This document shows, one piece after another, positions 1,002-17,637 of a stretch of DNA of 64,000 nucleotides. The notes under the pieces are model-generated. The model was not told the origin of the DNA and did not search any database. It was given only the letters and a program-made list of their open reading frames with translations. How positions within the stretch are numbered: the stretch's first letter is position 1; each line of letters starts with the position of its first letter. The DNA is from Paenibacillus ihbetae (lineage in GTDB: Bacteria; Bacillota; Bacilli; Paenibacillales; Paenibacillaceae), in assembly GCF_002741055.1 (NCBI RefSeq), contig NZ_CP016809.1, positions 1,054,001 to 1,118,000 on the forward strand, given 5' to 3'. A program made the translations under genes and the position numbers.

Positions 1002-2066
1002 TCAACTGCCCGCTTCCTCCCTCAACCGCTTCAGCGTATCCGGCACGAGCTCACCCAGACGCCATATGGCGATATCCGAAATGCCGGCGTTCATCGCCGT
1101 TGCCATCCAGCCTGCAAGCGTCGTCCCGTCCGCATACCAAACGGTATGACGGACCCCCGCATCATCCGTATACTCGAAGTGCAGAGCGCCGCTATCGGCA
1201 TCCCTCTGGGGAGCGGCGGAGCTTGAATCCGCCAGCTCGGCCGCCCGCTTCTCGGTCAACGAGGCGACCTTGCCGCCATCCGGCCAATCGAAGCCTCCCA
1301 CCGACAGCGCCAAGGAGGTGTTCCCGGGAAAACTGCGCAGCTTGTCGGCCAAATTCCGGATCATCCGGTGGTCGGCCTTCGGTCCCGGGCCGCTGTGGCC
1401 ACCGTACAGATTATAGGCCATCATGACATAAGAAGGACCCTCCGGAAAATCCAGTCCTTCCGTCTTCAAGCCGGGCTCAATCACAATGCGAAGGCTCAAT
1501 CCCTCTGCCTGGAGGCGTTCATACAGCTCGCCATAGAACAAAGTCAGCTTGCGAAGATCACGTTTATGAACCTTTTCGTAGTCAATCTCAACCCCGTCGA
1601 ATCCGGAGTCCTTCACCGTGTCGACGATCTGGTTGATATGCTTCTCCCGGGACGTGTCCGTAGCCACAAGCCTCGACACCAGGTCCGGATCCTTCTGAAC
1701 CGCCGTTCCATCCTCGCCAAACCTGTCATTAACGATGGTCAGCAGCATGCGCTCCACACCGGCTGCTGTCGCAGCCTCTCGGACTTCAGGCAGCGCCTCT
1801 CCGTACTGTTCCGTAAAATGAAGCTCATCCCTGTGATTAAAATAAGCCGCGAACATGCTGAGCCCCTTAACGCTTCCGCCAAGCTGCTCCAGATCTAGCA
1901 CCCCGGGCTTCCACTGCCAATCCGCGATCCAGGCAGACAGGCGAATCCCGGATGACGGCGGTGGCGGCAGTTCATCCGCGCCGCTTCTCCATTCGCGCCA
2001 TAGAAAAAACGCCGCAGCGAGAATAGTGACGGCCGCCGCCCAGATCCATTTTTTGTTGAGGCTCAT
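1002..2066 (-). CDS. Membrane-anchored GH18-like glycosidase
   Basis: This 354-residue protein has a basic N-terminus and one hydrophobic segment (about residues 7-23), suggesting a signal anchor and an extracellular domain. Residues 157-164 read DGVEIDYE, the DxxDxDxE-type strand-4 signature of glycoside hydrolase family 18, with E164 as the expected acid. A TIM-barrel fold is implied by the LSVGG and WRLGE-type segments near the end. The start is set at the ATG at 2066 because AGAAGGTGG lies 8 nt upstream; a GTG 12 nt earlier has no such site. It is the last gene of the minus-strand exopolysaccharide block and may trim or process the polymer. Substrate is unknown; spore-cortex type SleL/YaaH relatives are an alternative. 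Confidence 0.75.
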   Translation of the reverse strand: MSLNKKWIWAAAVTILAAAFFLWREWRSGADELPPPPSSGIRLSAWIADWQWKPGVLDLEQLGGSVKGLSMFAAYFNHRDELHFTEQYGEALPEVREAATAAGVERMLLTIVNDRFGEDGTAVQKDPDLVSRLVATDTSREKHINQIVDTVKDSGFDGVEIDYEKVHKRDLRKLTLFYGELYERLQAEGLSLRIVIEPGLKTEGLDFPEGPSYVMMAYNLYGGHSGPGPKADHRMIRNLADKLRSFPGNTSLALSVGGFDWPDGGKVASLTEKRAAELADSSSAAPQRDADSGALHFEYTDDAGVRHTVWYADGTTLAGWMATAMNAGISDIAIWRLGELVPDTLKRLREEAGS

Positions 2067-2090
2067 ATTTACCGCCACCTTCTCATATAG

Positions 2091-2310
2091 TCTCGTCCAT
2101 TTATGGTCTCACCCAGGGTGTCCCGACCGCCTGATCTCACCTAGCTGTCTCGTCCATCTATGATCATCTTGGATGTCCCGTCCATCTGACTCTCACCTAG
2201 AATGTCCTGACCGCCTAGACTTCACCTGGGGTGTCGCTACCGCCTGGATCTCACTTAAGAAGATTTCGACGGCTCGATCCCATTTAGAATGTTTCGACCG
2301 CCCAATTCAC
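2091..2310. repeat. Degenerate tandem array A2, about 8 units of 27-30 bp
   Basis: Units follow the pattern TCCCGACCGCC-TGA-TCTCACCTAG-AATG with considerable drift. The array fills the gap between the GH18-like gene and the deacetylase-like gene and runs into the latter: the final codons and stop of that gene (around 2284-2310) lie within the outermost unit. Confidence 0.75.
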
Positions 2311-4041
2311 AGCTGTATCGAATGTGCGGCGAACGCGCCAGACGGCGCCTTCCAAGCCTGAGGGCTTGTTCGTATACCGTACGTCCTTGCCCCCATTCGG
2401 ATCAATAGCAGATACCGTAACGTTCTCGAAGATCCCGTCGTAGATGTCGTCCTTTTGGTTCTGCTCATGGTACATCGATCCCAGGGCGACGCCGCCTCCC
2501 CGGATTGCGCTGTCCACCGGCTGACCGCCAAGGATCACCTGGCCGTCAACGCTAATCTTAAGCGTATCGCCGATTGCCGTCAGCTCCAGCTTCCTGTTGC
2601 CAAGGATATTGATCGGATATTCTTCATCATCGTCCCGATCCCCCGATAAAGTCTGCTCTTTCGTGTATACGGATGCTTTATCGAACCTCAGGTCCTCTTC
2701 GCCCCATTGCACGTCTGGCAGCGTCTGCTCGAACAGCTCTTTCGGCTCTTGGCCCGGTGCTTTTTGCTCTACCCGCAGCACGTTATTTTCAAGAACGAGC
2801 CGCAGGAACGAATCCCCCTTCTCGTCCACACGAACATAGATCGATTGCCGCCCGACCACGTTGCCGAGCAGGTTGGCCGTTACGGTCATATCAGCGCCGG
2901 GATCCTGGCGAAGACGAATACGTCCCTCGCCGGACGGAGGAGAGGTTACGATGATGCGACTGCCGTCGAATTCGGCCGCTCCGCCCTCCACTGCCCATCG
3001 GGCAGCCTCTTTATCGTCGCCCGTCACAAACGTCATATCCTGCCCAGAATCCTTGCGCAGCTTCATGCTCAAATGGTTGGTAGACCAGTAGGGCGCAGGC
3101 TGGACGCGCGTCAGGTTGTACAAATCTCCCTGCTTGTCGTTCATCGCCGTCCCCTCGCGGCTGAAATTCATCTTGAACGTTTGCCGGATCTGCTCAGTAT
3201 TCGCCTTGTCGACCAGCTCATTCATCCCTTCGCCAAGGGCGTTCGCATGCATGATCATATAGGCTCCCGGCACGTAACCGAGCTTATTGCTGTACACATC
3301 GCGCATCGCCGCATAATCGGCGCCGATCCGTGCTTCCATCTCCGCTCGGTCCTCGATCGGAATCATATTCTCGTCGCGGATAAAGTCCATCAGATAATGG
3401 TTGTAATATTCAACGTTCGATTTGTCGGTCAAATCCTTTTCGTCCTTGACGCCCATGTAGCGGCCGTCCTCATCAAAAATATTAATATAGGTCAAGCGGT
3501 AACCGTTCGTCCCAAGCTCCCAATAGCCGGTCCGGGTCATCTTCAGCATATCCTTGGGCTGCAGGAATTTTCGTTCGCTGTTGCCCATTTTGTCCGCATA
3601 CGACAGGAAGGTTGCTTTGAAGTTGTACTTCTCCAAAATCGGCTGCGCGAACAGCGCGGAATCGTTCCGCCCGTCTTCAAACGACAGGAACAGGGCTTTA
3701 TCCGGCAGCGGCGCGCCCTTCTCGTAATAATCGATCACGTCCTGCTGCGAAATCGTCTCGTAGCCTTGATCATACAGTGCTTTGAGCTGGGCGTCCAGCT
3801 GATCCTGCGACACCAGCTTGGACGTCCCGCTCCGTCCGACTCCGAAGTAGGACAAGGCGATGAAGCCTTCGTCCTGACGCCATTTTGACTTGTCCGGCTC
3901 CTGGTAGGTTTGAAGGTCGAAGACCGCGTTGATCAAAACGACGGCCGCCACCGCCAGGAGTATGATTTGGCCGATGACCTTTATGACTTTCCTGCGATTT
4001 TTCCTCTTAACGTTGAGGGCAGGGTTACGCTTCTTACTCAT
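2284..4041 (-). CDS. Polysaccharide-deacetylase-like membrane-anchored protein, probably catalytically impaired
   Basis: The protein has 585 residues: a very basic N-terminus, one membrane segment (about residues 19-42), a NodB-like domain (about 55-330) and a C-terminal beta-rich region (about 340-560) resembling a concanavalin-type carbohydrate-binding sandwich. The metal-site motif usually read as TFDDG is SFEDG at 120-124, and the usual HxxxH segment is replaced by WELGTNG, so at least one Asp and the His ligands are missing. An extracellular role in modifying or binding the polymer is inferred, perhaps without deacetylase activity. It lies 36 bp downstream of the PilZ-glycosyltransferase gene, consistent with one transcript. 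B. subtilis YdaL is a possible functional parallel, not a proven homologue. Confidence 0.65.
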   Translation of the reverse strand: MSKKRNPALNVKRKNRRKVIKVIGQIILLAVAAVVLINAVFDLQTYQEPDKSKWRQDEGFIALSYFGVGRSGTSKLVSQDQLDAQLKALYDQGYETISQQDVIDYYEKGAPLPDKALFLSFEDGRNDSALFAQPILEKYNFKATFLSYADKMGNSERKFLQPKDMLKMTRTGYWELGTNGYRLTYINIFDEDGRYMGVKDEKDLTDKSNVEYYNHYLMDFIRDENMIPIEDRAEMEARIGADYAAMRDVYSNKLGYVPGAYMIMHANALGEGMNELVDKANTEQIRQTFKMNFSREGTAMNDKQGDLYNLTRVQPAPYWSTNHLSMKLRKDSGQDMTFVTGDDKEAARWAVEGGAAEFDGSRIIVTSPPSGEGRIRLRQDPGADMTVTANLLGNVVGRQSIYVRVDEKGDSFLRLVLENNVLRVEQKAPGQEPKELFEQTLPDVQWGEEDLRFDKASVYTKEQTLSGDRDDDEEYPINILGNRKLELTAIGDTLKISVDGQVILGGQPVDSAIRGGGVALGSMYHEQNQKDDIYDGIFENVTVSAIDPNGGKDVRYTNKPSGLEGAVWRVRRTFDTAVNWAVETF

Positions 4042-4077
4042 TTTTGCGCCATCCTCATTTCAACATCGGCAGCTGCC

Positions 4078-5946
4078 TTACTGCGGCAGTCCGAATTTTT
4101 TGCCTTTGCGCCTGCGCGCTTCCTTCTTCAGCTTCGCCTCGACGTCCTGCGGCGTTTCCCGCGTGCCCCAGGTCGATTTCCAGAACGTGAACCAGGCGAC
4201 CGGCATTTGCCACAACAGCACGAACTCATAGAACAAGCAGAACACGAAGCCAAATACCCACAATCTGCTCTTCCGGAGCAGCAGATGCGCGAGGCTCATG
4301 AGCAGAGCCATCATCAGGAGTCCCATCAGGAAGGTCCCCGGGAAAATCCCGTGAACGATCGGAACGTACATCAGGTTATACACGACGACGACCGGCGCAG
4401 CTATCGGCACGATCAAGCCGATATAAAAGAACAGGGCCATAAACGGCTCTTTGCGCCAAATGAATCCTCCGGCCCGCAGCGATTCCCGCAGCCAGGAACG
4501 CTTCCAGCGCATTTGCTGCTTCAAGAACACCTTCGTCTGGGAAGGCACGATCGTCGAGCAAATCGCCGAATCCTGGTAGGTCGTGCGATGCGTCTTCAAA
4601 ATAAAGTTCGTCATGCTCCGATCATCCCCGAACGTAGCCGGCCGCCCCAGAAACTTCTGGTTAAGCCACGCGTCCGCATGCTGGAGAATCAGCTCTTTCC
4701 GGTAACAAGACAGCGGTCCGGACAAGCAGGTTACGCTGTCAAACCACGACTCTGCAGCCTTCATAATCCGAAAAGCAATATAGTAGCGGACGGTTTGCAG
4801 CTTCGTGATCGCATTCGTGTATTTGTTCTCGACATCGGTCCGGCCGGCAACGCCGCCCATCTTCGGATCCTGAAACGGCTGCACGAGGTGGCGAATGGCC
4901 GTCGGATCGAGGAAACTGTCCGAATCGACGAACACGACCAAATCATGCTTGGCCATTTCCACGCCCTTCACCAGCGCGACCCGCTTGCCTGCATTTTCAG
5001 GCAGAACCGTGTACGTGAGCCGGTCCCGGGTAGAATACCGCTCCGCTTCGCTATGGATGAGCTGGATCATCTCTTCAATTTGCTCCACGGACTGGTCCGT
5101 TGACCGGTCATCGACGACAATGACCTCCAGCTTATCGACCGGGTAATCCTGATTCATGCAGCTGAGGATCGTCCGCTTGATCCATTCCGCCTCGTTAAAG
5201 CACGGGATAATGATCGACACGCCGGGCGTATATTCCGGATTGATCGGCACATCCCGGTAAAGCGCTCCGAACAGATACCGGGTTAGAAGAAACAGCGCCG
5301 CAATCAAGCTGTACAAATACAGGACCATATTATATTTGAAATAGATGATGCTCTCGGCCCGCATGAGCATGATGAAGAGCACGGCTCCGAACAGCAGCGC
5401 GCTGGCCGAATATACGGAGTAGCCCCAGCGCTTGCGCCTCATGTATTCCGTCAGGGGCTTATCAAATTCAATGGCCAGCATATGGACCTGGGTGCCGCCG
5501 GTCGCGTCTACGAAAGCACGGACAACGGTTGCGTCAATATGAACGCGCGATTCAAACCCTTCAGGCATGGCGCCGGGCGGAATTTTGAATTTCGCCCGAA
5601 CTTTGTCCCCGACTTTAATGCCTGGATTAGCTGCAGGCAGCTTCAACAGCATGCCCGTGGCCGATATGTCCGAAGAGGTCCCTTGAAGGGCTGCTTTACG
5701 CCCTTGTCCGCCAGGAAGAATCCGCACGTCGAACTCAGCGACATAGCGCAGGCTGAGGGTTCGAAGCTGGTTCAAGTAGTCCGGATCGGCTCCGTTGTCT
5801 CCATTCTTCATCGCATGCTTGCCTCTTCGGTCGGCGGTTACCCGGATCTGTTCAGGATCCGGCACGTAGGACAGGGTACGGCGGTCGGCTCGGGGTTCCG
5901 TCAGAACCTCCTTGATCCTCTTGTCTTTTTTTCTAAACTTCAACAT
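4078..5946 (-). CDS. PilZ-domain processive glycosyltransferase family 2 (exopolysaccharide synthase)
   Basis: This 622-residue inner-membrane synthase has an N-terminal PilZ-like domain (about 60-165) with the second c-di-GMP motif DISATG at 93-98. The first motif (RxxxR) is not clean; R62 and R67 are candidates. Two membrane helices follow (about 175-195 and 205-227), then a GT-A domain with PCFNEAE (248-254), VVDD (277-280), DSD (341-343), FGDD (439-442) and the processive QxxRW motif QQMRW (477-481). Three more helices lie at about 503-525, 535-557 and 562-585. It would polymerise a UDP-sugar while exporting the chain, with c-di-GMP control through PilZ. Unlike BcsA, PilZ is N-terminal. 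The ATG has GGGAGAG 4 nt upstream. The dehydrogenase gene upstream is 19 bp away. Confidence 0.85.
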   Translation of the reverse strand: MLKFRKKDKRIKEVLTEPRADRRTLSYVPDPEQIRVTADRRGKHAMKNGDNGADPDYLNQLRTLSLRYVAEFDVRILPGGQGRKAALQGTSSDISATGMLLKLPAANPGIKVGDKVRAKFKIPPGAMPEGFESRVHIDATVVRAFVDATGGTQVHMLAIEFDKPLTEYMRRKRWGYSVYSASALLFGAVLFIMLMRAESIIYFKYNMVLYLYSLIAALFLLTRYLFGALYRDVPINPEYTPGVSIIIPCFNEAEWIKRTILSCMNQDYPVDKLEVIVVDDRSTDQSVEQIEEMIQLIHSEAERYSTRDRLTYTVLPENAGKRVALVKGVEMAKHDLVVFVDSDSFLDPTAIRHLVQPFQDPKMGGVAGRTDVENKYTNAITKLQTVRYYIAFRIMKAAESWFDSVTCLSGPLSCYRKELILQHADAWLNQKFLGRPATFGDDRSMTNFILKTHRTTYQDSAICSTIVPSQTKVFLKQQMRWKRSWLRESLRAGGFIWRKEPFMALFFYIGLIVPIAAPVVVVYNLMYVPIVHGIFPGTFLMGLLMMALLMSLAHLLLRKSRLWVFGFVFCLFYEFVLLWQMPVAWFTFWKSTWGTRETPQDVEAKLKKEARRRKGKKFGLPQ

Positions 5947-5965
5947 TGAGCTCTCCCATCCATCG

Positions 5966-7276
5966 TTACAGGCTCCAGTAATGGAAGCCGTTATTCTCGA
6001 ATAAACTTCTCGGATAAATGCCCTTTACGTCGATCATGATGTTCGCTTGGCCGGAGCCGAACATCTCGGTGTATTCCGTAATTCCAAGCTGTTTGAACTC
6101 GCTGTGCGCAACCGCTACGATCGCAACCTGAATGTCCTGCAGCTCCTCCAAAGCGGTCAGTTCAATCCCGTACTCCTTATAGGCCTGCTTGCCGTCGGCG
6201 CAAGGGTCCACGACCAGCGGCTGCACGCCGTAATCCTGCAGCTCCCGGATAATATCGATCACCTTGGAGTTGCGGATATCGCGGCAATCCTCTTTAAAGG
6301 TAAGCCCCAGCACAGCCACCTTGGCGTGGCTGATGTCCAGCCCTTTCTGGACGGCCAGCTTGATGACCTGCTGCGCGATGTATTTGCCCATGCCGTCGTT
6401 AATATGTCTTCCGGCCAGTATGATTTTTGAATGATACCCGCTATCCTCTGCTTTGTAAGTCAGGTAGTACGGATCGATTCCGATACAGTGCCCGCCGACC
6501 AGACCGGGCCGGAACGGCAGGAAATTCCACTTTGTCCCGGCTGCCCGCAGTACGGCATTCGTATCGATATCCATCTCGTTGAACAGCATGGACAGCTCGT
6601 TCATGAAGGCGATGTTGATATCCCGCTGGGCATTCTCGATCACCTTGGCCGCCTCAGCGACTTTGATGCTCTCGGCCCGGTGCACGCCCGCCTCGATAAT
6701 GAGCTCATAGAGCCGCGCTACCGTCTCCAGCGCTTCCGGATCGCTGCCCGAGACGATCTTTACGATATTCTCCAGCCGATGCACCCGATCCCCCGGATTG
6801 ATGCGTTCCGGAGAATACCCGACCTTGAAATCCGTTCCGAAGGCAAGCCCCGACTCCTCTTCCAGGATCGGGATGCACACATCCTCGGTGACCCCAGGGT
6901 ATACGGTCGATTCATACACAACGATCGATCCCGGTGCAAGCACGCGGCCGATCAAACGGCTCGCATCGCGCACGAATTTCAGATCGGGCACGTTCCCGCT
7001 CTTGACCGGCGTCGGGACCGCTACGATGAAACAGCGGGCCTCCTTCAGTTTTTCCGGATCGGATGTAAACTCCGCCGTGCATCCGGCCAGCTCAAGCTCC
7101 AGCTCCCCTGTCGCGTCGATGCCGTTTCGGTACTGCATGACCTTCTCCGAATTCAGATCGAAGCCGATAACATCAACCTTCTTGGCAAAGGCCACGGCCA
7201 GCGGAAGCCCGACGTATCCGAGCCCCACCACCGCCAATTTATCAACACGGTCCGCGATGTTTTGATAAGTATCCAT
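5966..7276 (-). CDS. Nucleotide-sugar (UDP-type) 6-dehydrogenase, TviB/CapL-like
   Basis: The enzyme oxidises C6 of a UDP-sugar to the uronic acid with 2 NAD+, supplying an acidic precursor. Over 436 residues it shows the Rossmann signature VVGLGYVGLPLA (16-27), ESTVYPGVTED (122-132), the helix around K206-K211, and the catalytic cysteine in GGHCIGIDPYY (C264). The C-terminal UDP-binding domain carries LGLTFKED. The sequence pattern is nearest to UDP-GlcNAc/ManNAc dehydrogenases of the TviB/WbpA type rather than to plain UDP-glucose dehydrogenase, though the substrate cannot be fixed by eye. It lies between the deacetylase lipoprotein (28 bp) and the PilZ synthase (20 bp), so it likely feeds that synthase. 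Confidence 0.85.
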   Translation of the reverse strand: MDTYQNIADRVDKLAVVGLGYVGLPLAVAFAKKVDVIGFDLNSEKVMQYRNGIDATGELELELAGCTAEFTSDPEKLKEARCFIVAVPTPVKSGNVPDLKFVRDASRLIGRVLAPGSIVVYESTVYPGVTEDVCIPILEEESGLAFGTDFKVGYSPERINPGDRVHRLENIVKIVSGSDPEALETVARLYELIIEAGVHRAESIKVAEAAKVIENAQRDINIAFMNELSMLFNEMDIDTNAVLRAAGTKWNFLPFRPGLVGGHCIGIDPYYLTYKAEDSGYHSKIILAGRHINDGMGKYIAQQVIKLAVQKGLDISHAKVAVLGLTFKEDCRDIRNSKVIDIIRELQDYGVQPLVVDPCADGKQAYKEYGIELTALEELQDIQVAIVAVAHSEFKQLGITEYTEMFGSGQANIMIDVKGIYPRSLFENNGFHYWSL

Positions 7277-7303
7277 TTTATTCCATCCCCAATATGCAAA
7301 TTG

Positions 7304-8758
7304 TTATTCCTGTTCCTGAATCAGGTCCGCCATCTTTACAAACGTATAGCCTTTCGCCTTGAGACCTTCGAGCACCCTTGGCAGTGCTTCAATCGTATGG
7401 ATGTCATCAAGCATATGGAGCAGGATGACGCTTCCCGGCTCCGTCTTCGTCATGACTCCGTGAACGATATCGTCCGCGCTGTTGCTCACGTCCCAATCGA
7501 GCGTCGTGACATCGTACATGGCGATGACCGGGTATCCGGTTGCCGCCAGCGCCTTGGCGCGAATATCGTCGACGACGCCCGTCGGCGGCCGGAATAGCAT
7601 GACGGGCTGCTCCTGAATGGCTTCCGTAATGACTTGGTGGGCTTTTACGACATCCTCTTGCAATGCCTCCGGCGTAAGGGTGGTTACAACAGGATGGCTG
7701 TAGGAATGGTTGGCTACATCATGTCCGCCCTCCACCATGGCCCGGGCCAGGTTCGGGTTGGACTCGACGCCCTTGGCCCGGAGGAAGAAGGTTGCTTTGA
7801 CATCATGCTCCTCCAGGATGTCCAGAATCTTGGTCACCGTCTTGTCGCTGCCAAAGTCGTCAAACGTCAGCGCCACCTCTTTGCGGTTCGTGTCAGCTTT
7901 GTAGACCAGCTCGTACTTCGAATTTTTATAGTCTGGATTGATCTTGGCCGCGTCGTAACCCGGAATTTGCTCCAGGGGCTTCCGCACGCCGCCGTTGTTC
8001 ACCAGCTCGTCCAGTGTTACAAGCGAATACCCGATGTCGCCGGCAGCCTCCGCAATATATTTCACGGAACCGACCACTTCCGGATTGATGTCCGTGTTCA
8101 GTGAAATAATCCCGCCCCTGGACATATACCTTGCGATATACTCGCCAAGCTCCTGAGCGCTCTGCATGTTGCGGTCCTTCGGGTTAATGTTGTAGCTTAC
8201 GACAGCCTTCATTCCCAGATGTGCGGCCGCCAGCGGGACATCTTCGGGATAGTCGCCGGACCGGGTCCGAACATACTTCGGCTGAACGCCTGTCTCGCGC
8301 TGGATGACATCGTTCGCAAGACGAATTTCCTTATACACCCCGTCATAATCGAGCTTGCTCAAATCGAGCGCATTGAGCGTGTTATTCTCGATCTCATGTC
8401 CGCGGGCCAAAATCTCCTTGGCAATGTCAGGCTCCTCCGCGACTCTCATCCCGGGCAGAAAAAAGGTAGCCTTGATGTTGTATGTATCAAGCTCGTTCAG
8501 CAGTGCCTGCATCGTCTGCTTGTCCCCCATGCCGTTAAAGGTCAAGGACAGCTCTTTTCGTGCCGTATACACGAAATCGATCTCCCGGCTTTTCTCGCCG
8601 GTGAACCGTTCGACTTTGGCTGCAGGCTCGACCGCGCCGGTCTCCTCCTTGGTTGCAGCTGATCCTCCGAAAAGGCTGCAAGCAGACAGCATCGACAGCA
8701 TGACGACGATCATGATACTGCGTAATGCGGCCTGTGATTTCGTGGTTAATCCATTCAT
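7304..8758 (-). CDS. Lipoprotein with two NodB polysaccharide-deacetylase domains
   Basis: This 484-residue exported lipoprotein has lipobox LSAC (C27). Domain 1 (about 68-250) has a degenerate site: TFNGMG in place of TFDDG, and HEIENN in place of HEIGNH. Domain 2 (about 290-480) keeps the full set: TFDD (298-301), HSYSH (351-355), RPP (390-392) and LLH (446-448). Deacetylation of N-acetyl groups on a nascent amino-sugar polymer is expected from domain 2 on the outer face of the membrane. The start at 8758 is favoured because AGAAGGAG lies 7 nt upstream; an upstream ATG at 8779 lacks a site. It is the first gene after a 630-bp gap and probably heads a sub-operon with the dehydrogenase and PilZ synthase. 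Confidence 0.85.
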   Translation of the reverse strand: MNGLTTKSQAALRSIMIVVMLSMLSACSLFGGSAATKEETGAVEPAAKVERFTGEKSREIDFVYTARKELSLTFNGMGDKQTMQALLNELDTYNIKATFFLPGMRVAEEPDIAKEILARGHEIENNTLNALDLSKLDYDGVYKEIRLANDVIQRETGVQPKYVRTRSGDYPEDVPLAAAHLGMKAVVSYNINPKDRNMQSAQELGEYIARYMSRGGIISLNTDINPEVVGSVKYIAEAAGDIGYSLVTLDELVNNGGVRKPLEQIPGYDAAKINPDYKNSKYELVYKADTNRKEVALTFDDFGSDKTVTKILDILEEHDVKATFFLRAKGVESNPNLARAMVEGGHDVANHSYSHPVVTTLTPEALQEDVVKAHQVITEAIQEQPVMLFRPPTGVVDDIRAKALAATGYPVIAMYDVTTLDWDVSNSADDIVHGVMTKTEPGSVILLHMLDDIHTIEALPRVLEGLKAKGYTFVKMADLIQEQE

Positions 8759-9389
8759 ATTTATACTCCTTCTATTCATTGCGGGACCTTAGTCTCCCTT
8801 CTAATTTCCTATTTAGAATATAGATTATTTTTTCTGATTCCGACAGCTTTTCTTTCTTGTTTTCATATGATTACTTTCATTTTCAAAGAATCCCGACATG
8901 AAATCCCGCTTCAGCTGATCCTTTGCGAGCGATAGATAAACTTTATCGGCCGCATGCCATGGATCAGTATATAGAGACACTCTAAATAAAATCTGAATAA
9001 GTCGGAGCATGCAGAAGGCCGCCGCTCGTCAAAGGAAGGACGCAATCGCCCTGTAATCCGTGTCTCCAGCCGCTTTTATCCTTCAAAAAAAATTTTTTCA
9101 AATAATTTTGACAGCGGCTCAAATCACCCTGATTTTATCGTGGAGTTTCCATTTTAACGGCATTGGCAGCTTATATATAGAAACAAAAAATTACAGAAGC
9201 AAAAAATTGCAGAAACAAAAAACACCTTCGCCCGTCTATGAAGACGTTGAAAGGTGTCTTTGTGAATTTTTTACGCAGTCTTTATGATTACAGCTTCCGG
9301 TTTTGATATAAGTGCTGCATGCACCCAAGAATACATGGCCTATTCGTCATGGATCGGAGCAAGGGATGAACGTCCGGACAGGTGCCTCT
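8759..9389. other. 630-bp AT-rich intergenic region inside the exopolysaccharide block
   Basis: No convincing gene is seen. A short minus-strand frame at 8825-9010 lacks a ribosome site and domain features. The stretch 9080-9210 is very A/T-rich with homopolymer runs. A hairpin at 9222-9257 lies close to the end of the upstream glycosidase-like gene, and a promoter for the downstream genes is expected here but was not pinned down. I looked for the conserved core of c-di-GMP-I riboswitches and did not find it. Confidence 0.5.
9222..9257 (-). terminator. Possible terminator hairpin after the glycosidase-like gene
   Basis: Outer arms ACACCTT/AAGGTGT enclose an inner stem CGTCT/AGACG with a 4-nt loop and a symmetric internal loop. 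On the minus strand the stem is followed by GTTTTTTGTTTC. It lies about 130 bp beyond the upstream stop codon. Confidence 0.45.
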
Positions 9390-10298
9390 CTACTGCTCAT
9401 CCTTAGCCATCGCCATGTTCTTGTGCACCCACGCCTGATAATGATGGACCGCGATGCCGGCAAATGACGGATGCCCGCTCCCGAGCGAGGCCGCCCGTTC
9501 GGCTTCGTCCTCCATTTCTCCCCGGCTTTTGGCATAGAAGGTGAGATGCTCTCCTTCATCCGTATGGGCAAGCTCCATTCCGATCCAGACCGATTTGCCG
9601 AGCTCATCCGCCTGCTCCAGCTCTTCCTTGGACAGCTCGTACATCTGCTCGCCGCTGTCGCGGTAAGCCATGATTGCGATCGAATCCGTACGCTCGATCA
9701 TCCATCGGCTGAAGGAGCCATCTGGATTGCCTTCCGGCCCCGGCACGGAATCCAGCCAGAAAGGAACCGCCGCGCTAAGGGGAAGGGCGATGCGCTCGGC
9801 CTCCTGTACCCAGGCTTCCATGTTCGCGCTCCACTCCTTCACCACCTGCGCCTGCTCGCGATCCCATCGCTTCAGCACGTAAGGCTCCACATCCAGCTGC
9901 ACACCCTGAAACCGCTCCTCAGGCGAGGCTACCTGATTGTAAGCCTCAAGCCAGGACAACAGCTTAAGCCCTTCCTCGCGGCCGTTCTCATAAGCCCATT
10001 CCGGGTGGCCGTCCAGCGCGTGGACCTGGATGCCCTCACGCGATGCCGCCGATATAAAGCGGCGATACTCCTCCTCCTGCACGTCCTGCTGGATCTGCAG
10101 AAAGATCGTCGTAATTCCGTGATTCACGCTAAACGTGACAATTTCCTCCGGCTCGCTCCGAATCAGACTTGCATCCCACAGCCAGGTCGCTTTGTTCTGA
10201 TTCACCTTCTCGGAATGGGGAAGAAAGAGGATCAGCAGCAAAAGACCGATGAGGACCGCAAGGATGCCGTACTTTGCTTTTGCGTGGTTCAACCTCAT
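9390..10298 (-). CDS. Membrane-anchored glycosidase-like TIM-barrel protein
   Basis: This 302-residue protein has an N-terminal membrane segment (about 10-27) and then an extracellular domain. Features such as TTIFLQIQ, IQVHALDG, GVQLDVEP (132-139, with D136 and E138) and SIAIMAY recall TIM-barrel strands of glycoside hydrolases with a paired D/E active site. I cannot name the family; DUF4434-like or GH18-like folds are possible. The gene starts with ATG behind GAAAGGAGAGG and lies 19 bp after the second nucleotide-sugar dehydrogenase, indicating co-transcription. A role in processing or remodelling the exopolysaccharide is inferred from context only. Confidence 0.65.
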   Translation of the reverse strand: MRLNHAKAKYGILAVLIGLLLLILFLPHSEKVNQNKATWLWDASLIRSEPEEIVTFSVNHGITTIFLQIQQDVQEEEYRRFISAASREGIQVHALDGHPEWAYENGREEGLKLLSWLEAYNQVASPEERFQGVQLDVEPYVLKRWDREQAQVVKEWSANMEAWVQEAERIALPLSAAVPFWLDSVPGPEGNPDGSFSRWMIERTDSIAIMAYRDSGEQMYELSKEELEQADELGKSVWIGMELAHTDEGEHLTFYAKSRGEMEDEAERAASLGSGHPSFAGIAVHHYQAWVHKNMAMAKDEQ

Positions 10299-10317: not shown

Positions 10318-11685
10318 TTAGATCAGAACCGCTTCGTCCGGCTCGGTCACATGCTGCACGGAATGGCCGATCTTGTAGATATGCGGGCGCGCGTAGTCCT
10401 TAAACGCATTTCGCGTATCCAGAATCGGAACACCAAGGGATGCGATGGTGCCGTAGTCCAGCTTGCTGTGGTTCGTGATCAGCACGATGCAATCGTAGCT
10501 GCGGAATTTGGCCAGATCGTATTCCACGCTGCGGATGGTCTCCCCGTTCTTGTCGACAAAGCTGACGGCGTACGGATCGTAGTACTCCACCTTGGCTCCG
10601 TTTTCCTTGAACAGCTCATATACTTCAAGCCCCGGAGACTCCCGGAGGTCGCTGATGTCCGGTTTGTAGGCCATGCCCAGCAGCAAAATGTTGGAGCGCT
10701 TGACCGATTTCGCATATTCGTTCAGTATCGTTGCCGTCTTGTTGATGACGTAGTACGGCATATTGTCGTTGGTCGATTGGGCCAGCTCGATGAATTTGCT
10801 GTAGAAGCGGAAGCCCTTCGCCTTCCAGGACAGATACATCGGATCAAGCGGAATGCAGTGTCCGCCGATGCCCGGCCCCGGATAGAACGGCATGAACCCG
10901 AACGGCTTCGTAGCGGCGGCATTGATGACTTCCCAGACATCGATCCCCATCCGGTCGCACATCATCGCCATCTCGTTCACGAAGGCAATGTTCACGCTGC
11001 GGAACGTGTTCTCCAGCAGCTTCGACATTTCGGCTACTTTCGGATTGCTGACCGGCACCACCGTCTCGACATACTGACGGTAAAGCGCAACGCCCAGCTT
11101 AAGGCAAGCTTCGGTCGTGCCGCCGATTACCTTCGGCGTATTCCGCGTATTGAACTTGCTGTTGGAGGGATCCACCCGCTCCGGCGAGAAGCACAGGTAG
11201 AAGTCCTTGCCGACCTTGAACCCGAGCTTCTCGATCTCATGCTGGATCAGTTCCTCCGTCGTTCCCGGATAGGTCGTGCTCTCCAGCGTAATGAGCAGAT
11301 TAGGCTTCATGAATCGCTTGATTTGATCGACCACCATCGTAATGTAAGACGTATCCGGGTCCTGGTTTTCGCTGAGCGGAGTCGGTACGCAGATGCTGAC
11401 TGCGTCGATCACCGCAATCATGCTGTAGTCCGTCGTCGGCTTGAAGCGTCCGGTCTCCATGCATGCGGCCAGCTCCTCGGACGAAATGTCGGTAATATAC
11501 GAATCGCCGCGATAAATCCGTTCAATCTTGTTCGGATCAAGATCGATCCCGACAACCGTAAAGCCCTGCTTGACCATTTCTACAGCCAGCGGCAATCCTA
11601 CATAGCCCAGTCCCACAACACCTAATACCGCCTTTTTATTCTCAATGGCGTTCAATAAAGTTTCGTATTCTTCGTTCACAAGCAT
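10318..11685 (-). CDS. Nucleotide-sugar (UDP-type) dehydrogenase, WbpA/UDP-GlcNAc-dehydrogenase-like
   Basis: The 455-residue enzyme has VVGLGYVGLPLA (23-34), ESTTYPGTTEE (135-145), CFSPERVDP (165-173) and the catalytic cysteine in GGHCIPLDP (C277), the typical pattern of UDP-N-acetylglucosamine or N-acetylmannosamine 6-dehydrogenases. It is clearly diverged from the second dehydrogenase at 5966-7276 (GGHCIGIDPYY there), so the locus has two non-identical enzymes rather than a recent duplication. They may serve two different UDP-sugars or two synthases. GGAGG lies 4 nt before the ATG; a GTG two codons later is an alternative. It is followed 19 bp later by the glycosidase-like gene. Confidence 0.85.
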   Translation of the reverse strand: MLVNEEYETLLNAIENKKAVLGVVGLGYVGLPLAVEMVKQGFTVVGIDLDPNKIERIYRGDSYITDISSEELAACMETGRFKPTTDYSMIAVIDAVSICVPTPLSENQDPDTSYITMVVDQIKRFMKPNLLITLESTTYPGTTEELIQHEIEKLGFKVGKDFYLCFSPERVDPSNSKFNTRNTPKVIGGTTEACLKLGVALYRQYVETVVPVSNPKVAEMSKLLENTFRSVNIAFVNEMAMMCDRMGIDVWEVINAAATKPFGFMPFYPGPGIGGHCIPLDPMYLSWKAKGFRFYSKFIELAQSTNDNMPYYVINKTATILNEYAKSVKRSNILLLGMAYKPDISDLRESPGLEVYELFKENGAKVEYYDPYAVSFVDKNGETIRSVEYDLAKFRSYDCIVLITNHSKLDYGTIASLGVPILDTRNAFKDYARPHIYKIGHSVQHVTEPDEAVLI

Positions 11686-11886: not shown

Positions 11887-12681
11887 TTAGTGAAGGCAGC
11901 GCCGGATGCGGGCATCCAGCTCCACCGGCGAGAAGGGCTTCGTCACATAATCATCCACTCCGCTCTGGAAGCATTGACTAATCGTTTGTTCCACGCGCTT
12001 CTCCGTCAGCACGACAATTTTGGGTGGATGTTTCATATCCAGCTGCTGGATATGATGGATGAACGGAAGGCCGTCAATCCCATACAGGTTCAGCTCGGTC
12101 AGCACCAGATCCGGCTCCCATTTCGGAATGAGCTCCAGTGCTTCCAGACCGTCCACGGCCTCCAGCGTTTCATAACCCTGCATCGTAAGCCGAATTTGCA
12201 GAAACTCCCTGACCGCTTTGTCCTGATCAACGATCAGGATACGGCTTTGAGCGCTGCCTGTATCCTCTTCCGTGAATATATGAATGTCGGAGGATGTGCT
12301 GAGACGCGCCGTCTCGGCCATCTGCTTCATCGTTTGCATGGACGGCGCCTCCTGTACGGCCGCCAGCGTAATCCGCGGATCCGCCTGCTGAAGCCGGCTT
12401 TGCAATTGCTGTTTCAGCAGAAGCGCCTGGTAGTGGGCCGCATCCAGCGTGAATCCCGGCATGACGACGGCGAGCACGCCCGTGCTCTCGTCCCGCAGCA
12501 CCTCCGTCTCCACGCCCGGCAGCTGATCCACGAACTGCTGAACGCAGGACTCCGTTCCGGGCTGGTCTTCGCAGTACAGAAACAGCAAGGCTGCGCCGCT
12601 TTGGTGTTCTCTCACTTTCTCCTCCAGGCGGCCGTAAAAATCAACCGCCTGTCCACGTTGCAATGTTACGGATTGAGACAT
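11887..12681 (-). CDS. Degenerate GGDEF-like plus pseudo-receiver regulatory protein
   Basis: The 264-residue cytoplasmic protein has a C-terminal receiver domain (about 146-264) with VDQD (151-154), the conserved T226 and K248 (YVTKPF). The expected phospho-acceptor Asp is Glu: the segment is DLVLTELNLYGIDG with E196 at that site, and one acidic-pair residue is Q153. The N-terminal half (about 15-130), with GVLAVVMPG, a long helix and RITLAAV, resembles the core of a GGDEF domain without its GGDEF motif; that resemblance is inference. A constitutive or phosphorylation-independent regulator of the neighbouring synthases is plausible. The ATG at 12681 follows AGAGGTGGG with 10-nt spacing. It lies 68 bp after the second glycosyltransferase. 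Confidence 0.7.
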   Translation of the reverse strand: MSQSVTLQRGQAVDFYGRLEEKVREHQSGAALLFLYCEDQPGTESCVQQFVDQLPGVETEVLRDESTGVLAVVMPGFTLDAAHYQALLLKQQLQSRLQQADPRITLAAVQEAPSMQTMKQMAETARLSTSSDIHIFTEEDTGSAQSRILIVDQDKAVREFLQIRLTMQGYETLEAVDGLEALELIPKWEPDLVLTELNLYGIDGLPFIHHIQQLDMKHPPKIVVLTEKRVEQTISQCFQSGVDDYVTKPFSPVELDARIRRCLH

Positions 12682-12749
12682 AACTGCTAGTCCCACCTCT
12701 CTTTATTGTTTTTGGTACGGCAATCATGCTGTGAACTTTGGGCCAGATG

Positions 12750-14135
12750 TCATGCCGCTTCCTTCTTATCTTTCCAGCTCTGCCGCGTCATGGTCCCCCA
12801 TGAATTGTTGTTTTGCAGGTATTGGATGTGGCCCTGTACTCTCCACAGCACGCCCAGTTGATGGTAGCCGACGAATTTCAGCGCCGAGAACAGAAGCATT
12901 TTCACCAGGTCGGACAGCTTCGTGTAGCGGCGGAAGGCGATCTCCTCGAGAAGGAGTGCGCCGATGCTGAGCAGATAACCGCTCAGGAAATTCACCAATC
13001 CGAATACCAGCAGAACCTGCCAATTGGTCATATCCGTCATGACATATCCAAGCAGAGCCAGAAGGCCCGTAATTCTGAAGTAAGGGTTTAACGCTTCAAA
13101 AATAACGTTGTAGGGCATCGTCAGGAGCCCCATGACTTTGTACTTCGGATTGAAAACCATATCCCGGTTCTCAATCATATTCTTCAGGTTACCGCGTCCC
13201 CAGCGCTTGCGCTGGTTGGACAGGATGTTGTACGTGTCCGGCGCCTGCGTCCAGCACACCGCTTCGGGACAAAACGCGACGCGGTAGCGGATTTTATTTT
13301 CAAGCATATAGCGGTGCAGCTTGATGATAATGTTCATATCCTCGCCCGGATAGCCGCCCCGGTAGCCACCAACGGCGATCACGTAGTCCTTACGGAACAT
13401 GCCGAAGGCGCCGGAGACGATAATCAGGCCGTTGATCTGGCTCCAGCCGATCCGTCCGCCCAGAAAGGCTTTCATATATTCGATCGATTGGAACATCGGC
13501 CACATTTTACGCGGCAGGGATACGTTCTTGACCGCTCCGTTCTCGATCACGCAGCCGTTCGCGATCCGAACATCGCCGCCGATGGCCACGGTCTCCTCCG
13601 GATTCTCCATGTACATCCGAGCCATACGGATCAATGCATCCTTCTCCAGCAGGGAATCCGCATCGATCGAGGAAATAAGCGGATAACGCGAAAGATTGAT
13701 GCCCGCATTCAAGGAGTCGGCCTTGCCGCCGTTCTCCTTGTCGATGACGTACAGATGCGGATATTGCGGGTTGTAATAGATCCCGCGTACTTGTTTGGTC
13801 TCGAGTCTTCCGCGAACTTCCGGATTAGGCAGCAGCGTCAGCTCGTATTCCTCAATCAGCACATCGAGCGTCCGGTCCGACGAACCGTCGTTGATCACGA
13901 TTACCTCATAGGTCGGATAATTGAGCGTCATGAGGCAGCGGACGTTCTCCGTGATGGTCAACTCCTCGTTATATGCAGGAACCAACAGCGAGACCGACGG
14001 GACGAGCTCCGATCCGGAGAGCGTATTATATTTGGAATAGGACGCCCGTCTGTAAATATTCCAGATGTTTCTGAAAGAAAGCATAATAATTACAAAATAA
14101 AGCGCGCTGACGGCCATGACGTAATAAATCGCCAC
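12750..14135 (-). CDS. Processive glycosyltransferase family 2, IcaA/hyaluronan-synthase-like
   Basis: From the GTG at 14135 the protein has 461 residues: one N-terminal membrane helix, a GT-A domain with VPAYNEE (52-58), INDGSSD (81-87), GGKADSLN (136-143), DAD (158-160), GED (264-266) and the processive motif QRKRW (308-312), and then about three C-terminal helices. It should polymerise an N-acetylhexosamine or similar UDP-sugar and extrude the chain. The GTG has no ribosome site; GGAGGGG lies at 14175-14181 and the same frame is open back to it, so translation may start at a CTG (14168) or ATT (14174) that overlaps the end of the HEAT-repeat gene, adding about 11 residues to the first helix. 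Confidence 0.85.
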   Translation of the reverse strand: MAIYYVMAVSALYFVIIMLSFRNIWNIYRRASYSKYNTLSGSELVPSVSLLVPAYNEELTITENVRCLMTLNYPTYEVIVINDGSSDRTLDVLIEEYELTLLPNPEVRGRLETKQVRGIYYNPQYPHLYVIDKENGGKADSLNAGINLSRYPLISSIDADSLLEKDALIRMARMYMENPEETVAIGGDVRIANGCVIENGAVKNVSLPRKMWPMFQSIEYMKAFLGGRIGWSQINGLIIVSGAFGMFRKDYVIAVGGYRGGYPGEDMNIIIKLHRYMLENKIRYRVAFCPEAVCWTQAPDTYNILSNQRKRWGRGNLKNMIENRDMVFNPKYKVMGLLTMPYNVIFEALNPYFRITGLLALLGYVMTDMTNWQVLLVFGLVNFLSGYLLSIGALLLEEIAFRRYTKLSDLVKMLLFSALKFVGYHQLGVLWRVQGHIQYLQNNNSWGTMTRQSWKDKKEAA

Positions 14136-14160
14136 CGTGCCGTAAGTGAGCAGGATATCC

Positions 14161-15354
14161 CTAAGCAGTGTAATCCCCTCCTACTCCTGCAACTGTTCCG
14201 ATCCGTTTACTTGGTTGAACGCCGAAGTAACGGTCATAAACAAGCTTTTTCTTATTGAAGGCCACCATTTGCTCGACCTCTTCATGGTCGCCTTCCTTCG
14301 CCATGATCCGTTCAATCCGGTACAGCGCCGTCTCTCTCGCAGGACCTGTGCCCGTCAAAGCCGCTTGACACAGCGTTTCGAAACCCTGCTCGCCCAGCAT
14401 CGCCAAGCTTTCCGCACTATGATTGCGCACATGCCAGTTCTCGTCCTTCAGCGCTTCGGCAAGCAGCGGAATACTGCCGGCCGCATGGAGCCTCCCGAGC
14501 GCTTTGGCTGCCGCTGCCCGTACCTCCCAGGCATGATCGTGCATGAGCGCAGCAATCGTATCGTCTTTAAGCGCCGGATTCGAGCCCAGATACAGCTTAA
14601 CCGCCTCAGCCCGCACATCCTTCTCCTCGGAGCCGACCAGCCGGTTCAAAGTAGGAACGGCCGCCGGAACAGCCTGTCCCCACATCGCAACGAGCGCCAC
14701 CTTGACGAGTCCCGGGTCCTGATCATCCAGCAGCTTGCGCATCAAGCTCGGGGCATCCAGCCGCGTCTCAAGCAAAATGTCGGCAGCCATATGATGAATG
14801 GCCTTGCCGTACGACAGCAAACGCGACAGCATTTCGCGGATTTGCCGCTGTTCATTCGCGCTCTTGGCGATCGCTCTGGCCAGGATGATGGTCACCGGCC
14901 CGTAACGGGTCCGGTTCATCAGCTGCTGAAGCTGCGGTACCGCTTCTTCGGCACGCATGCCCCCGAGCCGGTACGCCGCTTCAATGCGCCGCCCCTTGCG
15001 CGGGCTGGACAACGCCCGCAGATCCTCTTCCACGAAGCCCGCTTCCCTGCACAGGTGAAGGAGCTTCTCCCTCGCTTCTCCCTTGAACTGCTCGATCCAT
15101 TCGATAAATTTCGCCTGGATGACCCTGCGCTCGGCACGGGTCAGCTTCCCTGGCGGCAGCTCAAGCTTGATATCATCATGCAGATGGGCCTGAACATAAA
15201 CAAAGTAATCGTGATGCTTGGCAGCATAGTGCTCCATTTCCCGCTGCTCGGCATTATGCTTGATTTTCATGCAGAACAGCATTATGATCCCGGCAGCAAT
15301 CAGGCCAAGGCAAACATAGATAAATCCGTAGGCCAAGGCTAAATTTGAAAACAT
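14161..15354 (-). CDS. Membrane-anchored HEAT-repeat protein
   Basis: This 397-residue protein has one N-terminal membrane helix (about 6-28) followed by a cytoplasmic domain with several HEAT-type helical pairs between about 115 and 360 (for example KDVRAEAVKLY, AWEVRAAAAKALGRL, ENWHVRNHSAESLAMLG). HEAT arrays are protein-protein scaffolds, so it may hold the synthase to its regulators. The ATG at 15354 is chosen because AGAGGAGG lies 9 nt upstream; an earlier ATG is unsupported. It overlaps the likely start region of the following glycosyltransferase, suggesting translational coupling and a stoichiometric partner. No enzymatic motif is visible. Confidence 0.75.
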   Translation of the reverse strand: MFSNLALAYGFIYVCLGLIAAGIIMLFCMKIKHNAEQREMEHYAAKHHDYFVYVQAHLHDDIKLELPPGKLTRAERRVIQAKFIEWIEQFKGEAREKLLHLCREAGFVEEDLRALSSPRKGRRIEAAYRLGGMRAEEAVPQLQQLMNRTRYGPVTIILARAIAKSANEQRQIREMLSRLLSYGKAIHHMAADILLETRLDAPSLMRKLLDDQDPGLVKVALVAMWGQAVPAAVPTLNRLVGSEEKDVRAEAVKLYLGSNPALKDDTIAALMHDHAWEVRAAAAKALGRLHAAGSIPLLAEALKDENWHVRNHSAESLAMLGEQGFETLCQAALTGTGPARETALYRIERIMAKEGDHEEVEQMVAFNKKKLVYDRYFGVQPSKRIGTVAGVGGDYTA

Positions 15355-15402
15355 ATTCGAGTGCCTCCTCTTTGTATTTAGCATCTGGCCGCCCTCCCGG
15401 AC

Positions 15403-17637
15403 TTAAGGCAGACGCGTGAATATCTCCTGCATATCGTAATAGCTTTGCTTCAAGCGTTCACTGTACACGGGCGTTTCCCACAGCTCCCAGGTGTATGGCC
15501 GAATCCCCTCAAGATCGATCTCCATTGTCTTCGCCGCGGATTCGGCCGACCCGTCGAGCTCCGACCGCTTCGCGATCCACGGAGCAAGCCTGATTCCTTC
15601 GGTTGTGACGGTCGTGAACTCCCGTTTATTTTTGAGCGGGCTGTAATCGACCACCTGAAGAGAGCTAGGGTCTCCGAAGCCCAGCAGCATCCAAGGAATG
15701 CGCATCTCCACGAATCGGCCCTTGGACTGCCATGCGGTGAGAGAGTTGAAATCCGGAGATTCCGGATCAGTGCTGCCCCGCTTGAGCATGCCTACCGTCT
15801 CATCGATAAACGGGTGCGCAAACCGCGTGTCCGGCGGATTCATCATCAGGCTGATCGCGAGCTTCCAGGCATGGAACGTGCCGCCAGGGACGAGCGGATC
15901 ATCCTTGCTCCCGGCTTTCGGTTTCTCCGGCAGCATCCAATAACCGTCCGGGCCGTACAAACGGCTGTGGAAATCATAGGACGGCGCGATGCTTACCTGG
16001 GACTCTTCATCCTGGCCGAGCTGGATCAGCGTCTCCAGTTCGCCCCCGGCAAGTGTTCTGCCGGCAAGCTCCTTCTTCGGAATATCCCCGCCGGGAATCG
16101 TATCGACTCCGATGAACAGCTTGGATTCTTCCGGATCGAAGGCTTCCTCAAGCTCCATCCCGATATACAGGTATGCTTCATCGTGCGCAAGCTTCATTCC
16201 CTTAACGCCCGGGGCCGTTCCTTCCCACTGCTTGACCTCTCCCTCAGGAAGGTTGTCCCAATCGGCCAAATCGCCGTCAATGGAAATCTGCCCCGCTTTG
16301 CCCGGTTCCATGGCGAGCACCCCGAACATCTTCTCGTTGGTCAGGACATTCAACCAGAAGGCCCGTCGGTCTGCCGGTATTTCAAAAGGCATCGTATTCC
16401 ATGTTTTCTTAAACCATTCGTCCTGCCACATGAACAATATCGCCCCGGAGTAGCCTTCATCGAATATCTCCTGGGTCAGTGAAGCGTTAATATTGCCCTG
16501 CTCGGCTTCATCATGCCCCCCTTGATCCCGACCCCCGGGTCCGTGGTGCGACACGCCGATCGATGATGGAACGCCGTATTCGGTAACCATGATCGGCATA
16601 TCGTCATACTCCGCTTTCAGCTTGCGGAGGTAGGCCTTATAGGTGTTATATCCGCCATTCCCGTCCGGAATCGTCCGCAAGGTTTTGTCGGTACGGAAGA
16701 AATCCGGATAGTAAGGATACACGTGATAGGCCGCAAAGTATCCGGCATCCCAGTTAACCGGTTCAATATGCCGGGCATCGACGGACACCAGATCCTCCTC
16801 AAACAGAGGCTCGCCCGGATGCTCCAGGACATCGGTCGTGACCCAATTCGTAAAGGTCATCGGATGCTGCCAGCCGTACTTTTGCTCTTGCTGTGCCGTG
16901 TAATCCAGTAATGAGGCCAGCCAATTCTCGAACGGGCTCGCGTCCTTCGTGCCGGAGAAGAATGTCCCGTCGTATCTTGGCGCATCCTTATGTACCCTGT
17001 TCGTGTTGTCGACCATGGACGGATCCCATTCGGTTCCCAAATGCCAGGCCATCAAATATTTGCCCGCATTCGTCTTATACTCGCCGCTAGATTGTCCATG
17101 CTTCGGCTCTACGGTGATATCCCCGTATACAGCCGCTACCGCTTTGGAAATCTCGGCTTTAAACATCTGCACAATCTCTTCGTCGTATGCGTCCCGACGC
17201 TCGATCAGCTGCTCTTCCGGAGACCATATCCCCTGCATGAAGTACAGAGGATCCTCCCCCTTGTTCCGGTTGTACTTTACCAGAGCCGAGTAGAAGACCG
17301 GGTTGTGCACGGTGTAGACCCTGATGATGTTCGCTCCCATTTCATCAATCTGTTTGAACCAACGCAAGTAGTCCTCTTCGGTTGCCGGCAGCGCGCCCGG
17401 AAAATGCCCCGGAACAGTCGCGCCGAGATTGACGCCCTTGGCGAATACCTCACGCCAGCTCTCATCTTCCCCGTACACAAGGAAAGAAGTGCCTTCCGTT
17501 TTGAATTTCATCTTCACACCGTCCGCTCCCGCATACGTCGTTATGACCGGACGGAAGTTTCCGAGTATTACAGCGGCACCGCTTAGAAGCACTATAGTGC
17601 ACAGTGCTGCGATCACCCACCATTTTCGTCTGCTCAT
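15403..17637 (-). CDS. Membrane-anchored GH-A clan glycosidase-like protein with C-terminal DOMON/CBM9-like domain
   Basis: The 744-residue protein has a signal anchor (about 6-26), then a TIM-barrel-like domain (about 60-435). The acid/base site is probably E203 (AWHLGTEWDP) and the nucleophile E353 (VTEYGVP), as in clan GH-A. From about 448 (ISIDGDLADW) the sequence looks like a CBM9/DOMON-type beta-sandwich reaching to the end. It would act outside the cell on a glycan. Being the first gene of the minus-strand block, 48 bp before the HEAT gene, it ties extracellular glycan processing to the synthase. ATG at 17637 is preceded by GAGGA at 6 nt. The exact GH family is not assigned. Confidence 0.7.
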   Translation of the reverse strand: MSRRKWWVIAALCTIVLLSGAAVILGNFRPVITTYAGADGVKMKFKTEGTSFLVYGEDESWREVFAKGVNLGATVPGHFPGALPATEEDYLRWFKQIDEMGANIIRVYTVHNPVFYSALVKYNRNKGEDPLYFMQGIWSPEEQLIERRDAYDEEIVQMFKAEISKAVAAVYGDITVEPKHGQSSGEYKTNAGKYLMAWHLGTEWDPSMVDNTNRVHKDAPRYDGTFFSGTKDASPFENWLASLLDYTAQQEQKYGWQHPMTFTNWVTTDVLEHPGEPLFEEDLVSVDARHIEPVNWDAGYFAAYHVYPYYPDFFRTDKTLRTIPDGNGGYNTYKAYLRKLKAEYDDMPIMVTEYGVPSSIGVSHHGPGGRDQGGHDEAEQGNINASLTQEIFDEGYSGAILFMWQDEWFKKTWNTMPFEIPADRRAFWLNVLTNEKMFGVLAMEPGKAGQISIDGDLADWDNLPEGEVKQWEGTAPGVKGMKLAHDEAYLYIGMELEEAFDPEESKLFIGVDTIPGGDIPKKELAGRTLAGGELETLIQLGQDEESQVSIAPSYDFHSRLYGPDGYWMLPEKPKAGSKDDPLVPGGTFHAWKLAISLMMNPPDTRFAHPFIDETVGMLKRGSTDPESPDFNSLTAWQSKGRFVEMRIPWMLLGFGDPSSLQVVDYSPLKNKREFTTVTTEGIRLAPWIAKRSELDGSAESAAKTMEIDLEGIRPYTWELWETPVYSERLKQSYYDMQEIFTRLP

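Follow-up and report, generated by a model that had tools for sequence, protein, structure and literature searches.

Hyaluronan (has) operons place a single-chain hyaluronan synthase (HAS) beside a uridine diphosphate (UDP)-sugar dehydrogenase, and in the bcs and Bacillus subtilis ydaJ-N systems a family 2 glycosyltransferase (GT2) synthase is under PilZ or degenerate-GGDEF control and has a glycosidase partner. According to the abstract of PMC7112168, little is known of the polymers of Gram-positive biofilms. Here, a run of eleven genes was analysed in a 64,000-nucleotide stretch of Paenibacillus ihbetae DNA (NZ_CP016809.1, positions 1,054,001 to 1,118,000; hereafter the window). The host genome is a single contig of 6,593,819 bases. 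These genes had been taken, from the letters of the window, for one candidate exopolysaccharide locus with two processive synthases (the original prediction). We consider, with a probability of about 70%, that they comprise a tandem of two distinct cassettes for synthase-dependent exopolysaccharides, either one having an N-acetylhexosamine (HexNAc)-type dehydrogenase of its own.

The open reading frame listing of the window gives eleven consecutive frames on the minus strand at 1002-17637, A to K, in the row originally predicted. The reading order is K-J-I-H-G-F, then a gap of 610 bases, then E-D-C-B-A; the remaining nine intergenic gaps measure 18 to 205 bases. From their sequences, the first six genes are assigned to module 1 (17637-9390) and the last five to module 2 (8779-1002), and either module has a single GT2 synthase and a single UDP-sugar dehydrogenase (I and G in module 1, C and D in module 2). 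Families were assigned by Pfam and NCBIfam scans (K scanned with Pfam only), and the features are as follows.

15403-17637, minus strand: K (module 1), 744 amino acids, N-terminally anchored, predicted GH-A-type TIM barrel and beta-rich C-terminal part, with Glu203 and Glu353.
14161-15384, minus strand: J (module 1), N-terminal membrane segment (by hydropathy) and HEAT repeats (Pfam HEAT_2, 2.1e-21).
12750-14135, minus strand: I (module 1), processive GT2 synthase, IcaA/PgaC-like, with QRKRW.
11887-12696, minus strand: H (module 1), receiver domain at the C terminus, in which Glu201 takes the phospho-acceptor position; N-terminal half with a GGDEF-like order of elements, without the signature.
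10318-11685, minus strand: G (module 1), UDP-N-acetylhexosamine-type 6-dehydrogenase (GGHCIPLDPMYL).
9390-10298, minus strand: F (module 1), N-terminally anchored (by hydropathy), glycosidase-like, with an LDVEPY motif.
9215-9260 (approximate), minus strand: predicted intrinsic terminator between the modules, from fold energy and a scan for hairpins with T tracts.
7304-8779, minus strand: E (module 2), probably a lipoprotein (LSAC, by eye), consisting of a degenerate first NodB domain and a second one in which the catalytic residues are intact.
5966-7276, minus strand: D (module 2), TviB-like UDP-N-acetylhexosamine 6-dehydrogenase (GGHCIGIDPYYL).
4078-5946, minus strand: C (module 2), N-terminal PilZ domain and a GT2 core like those of hyaluronan synthase, NodC and chitin synthase.
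2284-4041, minus strand: B (module 2), anchored, PgaB/IcaB-like pseudo-deacetylase domain and a C-terminal domain of unknown family.
1002-2078, minus strand: A (module 2), GH18-like, with DGVEIDYE (Pfam GH18, 5.8e-10).

Much of the gene content first proposed is borne out: GT2 synthases with QxxRW (present in both C and I), two dehydrogenases (D and G, by Pfam and NCBIfam), a HEAT-repeat protein (J), a degenerate regulator of receiver type (H) and a glycosidase-like set (A by GH18, F by its match to a GH97-titled chain, K by its barrel model). The assignment to synthase-dependent polysaccharide formation is likewise supported.

To place the modules among relatives, contigs were scanned with the K profile and the best 80 of at least 577 stretches encoding a relative, that is, near relatives, were compared. 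They come from Paenibacillus, Fontibacillus, Cohnella, Brevibacillus, Ammoniphilus and Aneurinibacillus; the closest among the named loci listed is P. lactis DSM 15596 (K 96% identical), the window's own and very near genomes possibly being left out. K, J and I occur together in 80/80, J always adjoining I, and H in 79/80. G lies just downstream in 66 and an F relative within 9 kb in 72, and the gene order is K-J-I in 67 and J-I-H-K in 13. Module 2 follows module 1 in three of the 80 (L054, L092, L102), the flanks examined being short in a few loci. At L055 (P. lautus NBRC 15380), module 1 is followed only by a 207-base B stretch and an A gene match (18642-19942); module 2 can therefore be lost while module 1 stays. 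Module 2 is conserved separately. Among 23 C loci (the window, L034, L037/38, L050, L051, L052 and 17 further), none lacks D or B; 22 hold E, the exception being L177, and 20 hold A, the exceptions being L165, L168 and L173. C, B, E and a dehydrogenase also occur together at each of five further loci, L217-L221, from other families, and A is present at four of these. In 20 regions compared J accompanies K, I and H and mostly G and F, and C accompanies E, D, B and A. It is synthase I, not C, that the HEAT and GH proteins accompany, contrary to the idea of one locus with two co-operating synthases. At the distant K regions L049 and L053, J was not detected at E < 1e-40.

The two modules are mostly apart at the genome level too. 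Sixty relatives, including the own genome, gave a strong J match (E < 1e-40) in 15, C (E < 1e-200) in 6 and both in 5, adjacent in 3. In a sample of the order (296 genomes, E up to 1e-40), synthase C was found in 22 genomes, a K relative in 149 (paralogues included) and both in 19. The pair is in tandem in five of the 19 (G000, G002, G020, G267, G308); for the other 14, with neither K nor J in the 17-20 kb surrounding C, we read the two as apart. C occurs without a K match in three genomes (G309, G082, G250). In a sample of the class (299 genomes, E up to 1e-60), C was found in 14, a K relative in 77 and both in nine; only the window's own pair is adjacent, the other eight lying on different contigs or far apart. 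Tandem placement was seen in six genomes only (the window, G002 (P. lactis), G020, G267 (P. glucanolyticus), G308 and L054), and the joint conservation of both synthases, which the original prediction had named as its own test, was largely refuted.

It could still be argued that both synthases contribute to one heteropolymer or composite matrix strand, with the eleven genes acting as a unit; the tandem in these six genomes and the above-chance co-occurrence in both samples (given below) would be in line with this. We regard it as very improbable, since 77 of the 80 named K loci have no adjoining module 2 in the flanks covered (L055, with its remnant, among them), the modules lie apart in most order genomes that have both and are over 1 Mb from each other in four class genomes that consist of a single contig (G486, G511, G543, G567), C occurs without K, and a terminator is predicted between F and E. 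The reading as a single composite locus was rejected in view of synteny and the terminator.

A stretch of 61 bases in the F-E gap has a fold energy of -20.8 kcal/mol (z -5.27), equalled by none of 200 shuffles. A hairpin with a T tract was found in this gap at all eight tandem loci, which represent six distinct genomes (L034/L092 and L162/L102 being pairs whose contigs are equally long). It was absent from the other nine gaps of the window, each scanned with 40 bases on either side; the same scan found one downstream of A. Whether the genes form one or several transcripts had been posed as a check at the outset; this sequence scan, with its predicted terminator in the F-E gap, points to separate transcripts for the two modules. 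A pattern-based terminator count gave 16 against 17.5 expected, and of the F-E hairpin only the inner stem (9246-9229) was listed. Sigma-70-like promoters (17 against 13.1 expected) were uninformative. A riboswitch or other known RNA was rejected for positions 1-24000, where Rfam gave two sub-threshold snoRNA matches, taken as chance.

The nature of the polymers was approached through the dehydrogenases. With the TviB model (cut-off 592) D reaches 480 bits, with TuaD 115; for G, two models of UDP-N-acetylmannosamine dehydrogenases give 262 and 247 bits, TviB gives 201 and TuaD 146. The GGHC motif is present in 25/25 D frames and 81/81 G frames (some loci being duplicated between collections). 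In five alignments to solved chains, GGHC was seen in all three of N-acetylhexosamine type, among which we presumably may count Cap5O, and GGSC in the other two, CalS8 and a UDP-glucose dehydrogenase. UDP-glucose dehydrogenases of the hyaluronan or teichuronic type were rejected by motif and model scores. Across the genome, five matches to the N-terminal UDP-sugar dehydrogenase domain were counted; G (149 bits) and D (128 bits) are the only strong ones, the third (28 bits, in a 321-residue frame) being just above the cut-off and the remaining two below it.

A dehydrogenase is present in 28/28 module-2 loci examined. At three loci from one family, L217 and L218 (both in G371) and L219 (in G512), a non-orthologous GGHC dehydrogenase nearer to the G type takes the place of D. 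The order there is dehydrogenase-E-C-B, and two of these loci also have A; L220 and L221 retain the D type. Synthase C is thus paired with a HexNAc-type dehydrogenase that is exchangeable between subfamilies. This pairing, replacement included, is in our view the strongest indication that the polymer contains an amino-uronic acid, and we infer one in the polymers of both modules. Each cassette probably makes its own acidic amino-sugar polymer. An acidic amino-sugar product, which had been foreseen, is the best reading of the UDP-HexNAc-type signature in D and G.

On the synthase itself, the profile of C (A2) has the hyaluronan synthase 8smm_A as its best solved chain (159 bits, top of 29 sequences), the best NCBIfam model is NodC (192 bits, cut-off 550), and some public names of C relatives read 'hyaluronan synthase'. 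Such resemblances would suit a neutral or hyaluronan-like product of module 2, with the dehydrogenases serving other wall glycans and not the adjacent synthase. This is unlikely, given a dehydrogenase in every module-2 locus, even as a non-orthologous replacement, and the motif GGHC, not GGSC.

The remaining proteins of module 2 were compared residue by residue (counts for A, B, E, H, K and the PilZ domain of C were taken by alignment columns). In the Pfam scan E matches a deacetylase family strongly and B falls just under the cut-off (22.6 vs 23.1 bits); in B, FEDG and W-E-x-G-x-N-G are present in 22/22 relatives and a His in the motif segment in 0/22. We call B, by these residues, a conserved pseudo-deacetylase without catalytic residues. 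In E, the first NodB domain has Asn82-Gly83 instead of the Asp pair and a second motif without His, and the second domain retains Asp307, Asp308, His358 and His362, all in 22/22 relatives. B and E are the two deacetylase-like proteins expected, but B and one of the two domains of E lack catalytic residues, and a pair of active deacetylases was rejected on this ground. E exceeds the NCBIfam cut-off of the sporulation deacetylase PdaB (273 vs 237.4 bits), and the named hosts belong to genera known to sporulate; one or both cassettes might on this account make a spore- or wall-attached glycan and not a released exopolysaccharide. We hold this to be quite unlikely, as E consists of two NodB domains within a synthase cassette and no sporulation model was matched by the other ten proteins (K scanned with Pfam only). 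The PilZ domain of C is found at 1.7e-6 (Pfam; below the cut-off in L050 and L217) and has DxSxxG in 22/22 relatives; nine GGDEF matches are present in the genome. A has Glu164, Asp166 and Glu168 in 20/20 relatives; position 161 varies (Asp in 12/20). Just 3′ of gene A (window 782-986), a 51-bp unit that contains a small inverted repeat (by eye) is present in four tandem copies.

In module 1, synthase I is IcaA/PgaC-like (137 bits, cut-off 422) and has QxxRW in 97/97 frames. F and K gave no match in the Pfam scan, and no match was obtained for the K profile in a sequence search against solved chains. The predicted structure of K is a GH-A-type barrel, with two Glu at the catalytic positions after strands 4 and 7 (Glu203 and Glu353, both in 97/97 relatives), and a beta-rich C-terminal part. 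Its structure matches include GH2 uronidases, which is compatible with a uronic polymer and informative on the clan only. A Pfam GH72 hint appeared in 2 of 11 K members (best 0.0057) and in L211 (0.0012, below the cut-off there). L211, L212 and L213, from other families of the class, encode longer K paralogues (1041-1063 residues), with HEAT and GT2 neighbours in L211 and L213, not in L212. In L036 (G018, 3787-8669) K and I are each split over two frames, by sequencing error or decay. The F profile (A6) matches PDB 10yv_A, titled 'Putative GH97 from Cellulomonas fimi' (6.5e-25), and D[VI]EPY is present in 98/101 frames.

Of 98 relatives, 84 have Glu and 14 have Asp at position 201 of H; hence the receiver is mostly, not always, predicted to be without a phospho-acceptor. 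The order of elements in a structure model of its N-terminal half fits GGDEF, the structure comparison matches shown covering the receiver half and barely probing the N-terminal one. Pfam GGDEF gave no match in nine of ten H members scanned; the tenth, in the distant module-1 relative L049, has a GGDEF domain. The N-terminal half of H may, at best, be a GGDEF remnant. The counterpart in L049 (G031, 3964-5607) matches Hpt, two receiver stretches and GGDEF; by eye, its GGDEF motif looks degenerate and an RxxD inhibitory-site-like motif is retained.

Several observations weigh against two self-contained cassettes or parts of the scheme proposed for them. The modules co-occur above chance in the order (19/22, Fisher p 0.00055) and in the class (Fisher p 0.0021), phylogeny being ignored in both; a link between them at the matrix level is therefore possible. 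Module 1 is not invariant: 14 of the 80 named K loci have no G in the first 5 kb downstream of I, the distant relatives L212 and L214 have K without I or J, and the distant locus L053 has K and I without J or H. Neither D nor G reaches any equivalog cut-off. The PilZ domain of C has no RxxxR; its arginines are spaced R-x4-R (Arg62 in 18/22, Arg67 in 22/22 relatives), with Arg22 and Arg23 further upstream in 22/22, and binding of cyclic di-GMP (c-di-GMP) is uncertain because of this spacing. Finally, hhalign of the N-terminal half of H with seven GGDEF domains of its own genome gave a probability of 10.4% (receiver-half control, 0.2%).

With two separate cassettes preferred, a working scheme can be proposed. 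In module 1, G would oxidise UDP-HexNAc to its uronic acid form, and I would polymerise and export a chain containing this sugar. The anchored HEAT protein J and the degenerate receiver H could provide an inner-face scaffold or allosteric control of I; outside, trimming or re-linking of the chain could fall to K and F, both anchored and glycosidase-like. In module 2, D would supply a UDP-HexNAc uronic acid, UDP-N-acetylglucosaminuronic acid (UDP-GlcNAcA) going by the closest model, which C would polymerise under PilZ control, probably with UDP-N-acetylglucosamine (UDP-GlcNAc). The lipoprotein E would then take off some N-acetyl groups, and B and the GH18-like A would bind or trim the chain. 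A more specific version is tentative: a HAS-type module 2 controlled by PilZ and c-di-GMP would make a zwitterionic glycan of GlcNAcA and partly deacetylated glucosamine, with the dead deacetylase as chain-binder, and module 1 would be a HEAT-scaffolded amino-uronic machine with a mostly non-phosphorylatable receiver. If true, the two modules together would be undescribed matrix machinery of many Paenibacillaceae. The polymers may matter to many members of this family, since K, the module-1 marker, has relatives in 149/296 and synthase C occurs in 22/296 order genomes. A new acidic amino-sugar polymer might find practical use, and both the PilZ-linked HAS-like enzyme and the dead deacetylase, itself conserved, lend themselves to direct tests.

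Searches of an open-licence paper collection listed no title or abstract start describing either cassette, a weak negative; the expectation that the gene set had no named operon thus holds so far. In the main text of the survey PMC7112194, Paenibacillus does not occur. Judged by family models and motifs, neither cassette classes with the poly-N-acetylglucosamine (PNAG), cellulose or Pel systems, nor has the dehydrogenase of hyaluronan operons. Like Pel systems, including Gram-positive Pel (PMC7112168), the cassettes would be synthase-dependent with c-di-GMP control; no GT4 (PelF-type) or PelG match was found by Pfam among the eleven proteins. With PNAG systems (pgaABCD/icaADBC) they share synthases distantly similar to PgaC/IcaA (C and I), a PgaB-like domain (B), a deacetylase (E) and a glycosidase-like partner (A). 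They differ in the dehydrogenase and PilZ domain and in the lack of catalytic residues in B. C (127.0 bits) and I (136.6 bits) stay far below the PgaC/IcaA cut-off of 422.3, and B (42.6 bits) far below the PgaB/IcaB cut-off of 321.9, though E could still deacetylate.

PilZ or degenerate-GGDEF control of a GT2 synthase with a glycosidase partner would recall bcs and ydaJ-N. With the CelA model TIGR03030 (cut-off 699.1), C and I score 44.3 and 40.4 bits, below the BcsA level. As a further difference, the present genome has a separate degenerate-GGDEF and GT2 pair elsewhere. That cluster (L188, 3521-7058; G000:C1, about 3343520-3347057) encodes an unknown 397-residue protein, a protein with a weak GGDEF match and a GT2, in what we take to resemble the ydaK/ydaM arrangement. 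As in has operons, the HAS-like single-chain synthase C adjoins a UDP-sugar dehydrogenase; this partner, however, appears to be of the UDP-HexNAc and not the UDP-glucose type (GGHC in 25/25, TviB as best model), and module 2 adds a PilZ domain, a deacetylase and a GH18-like protein to the pair.

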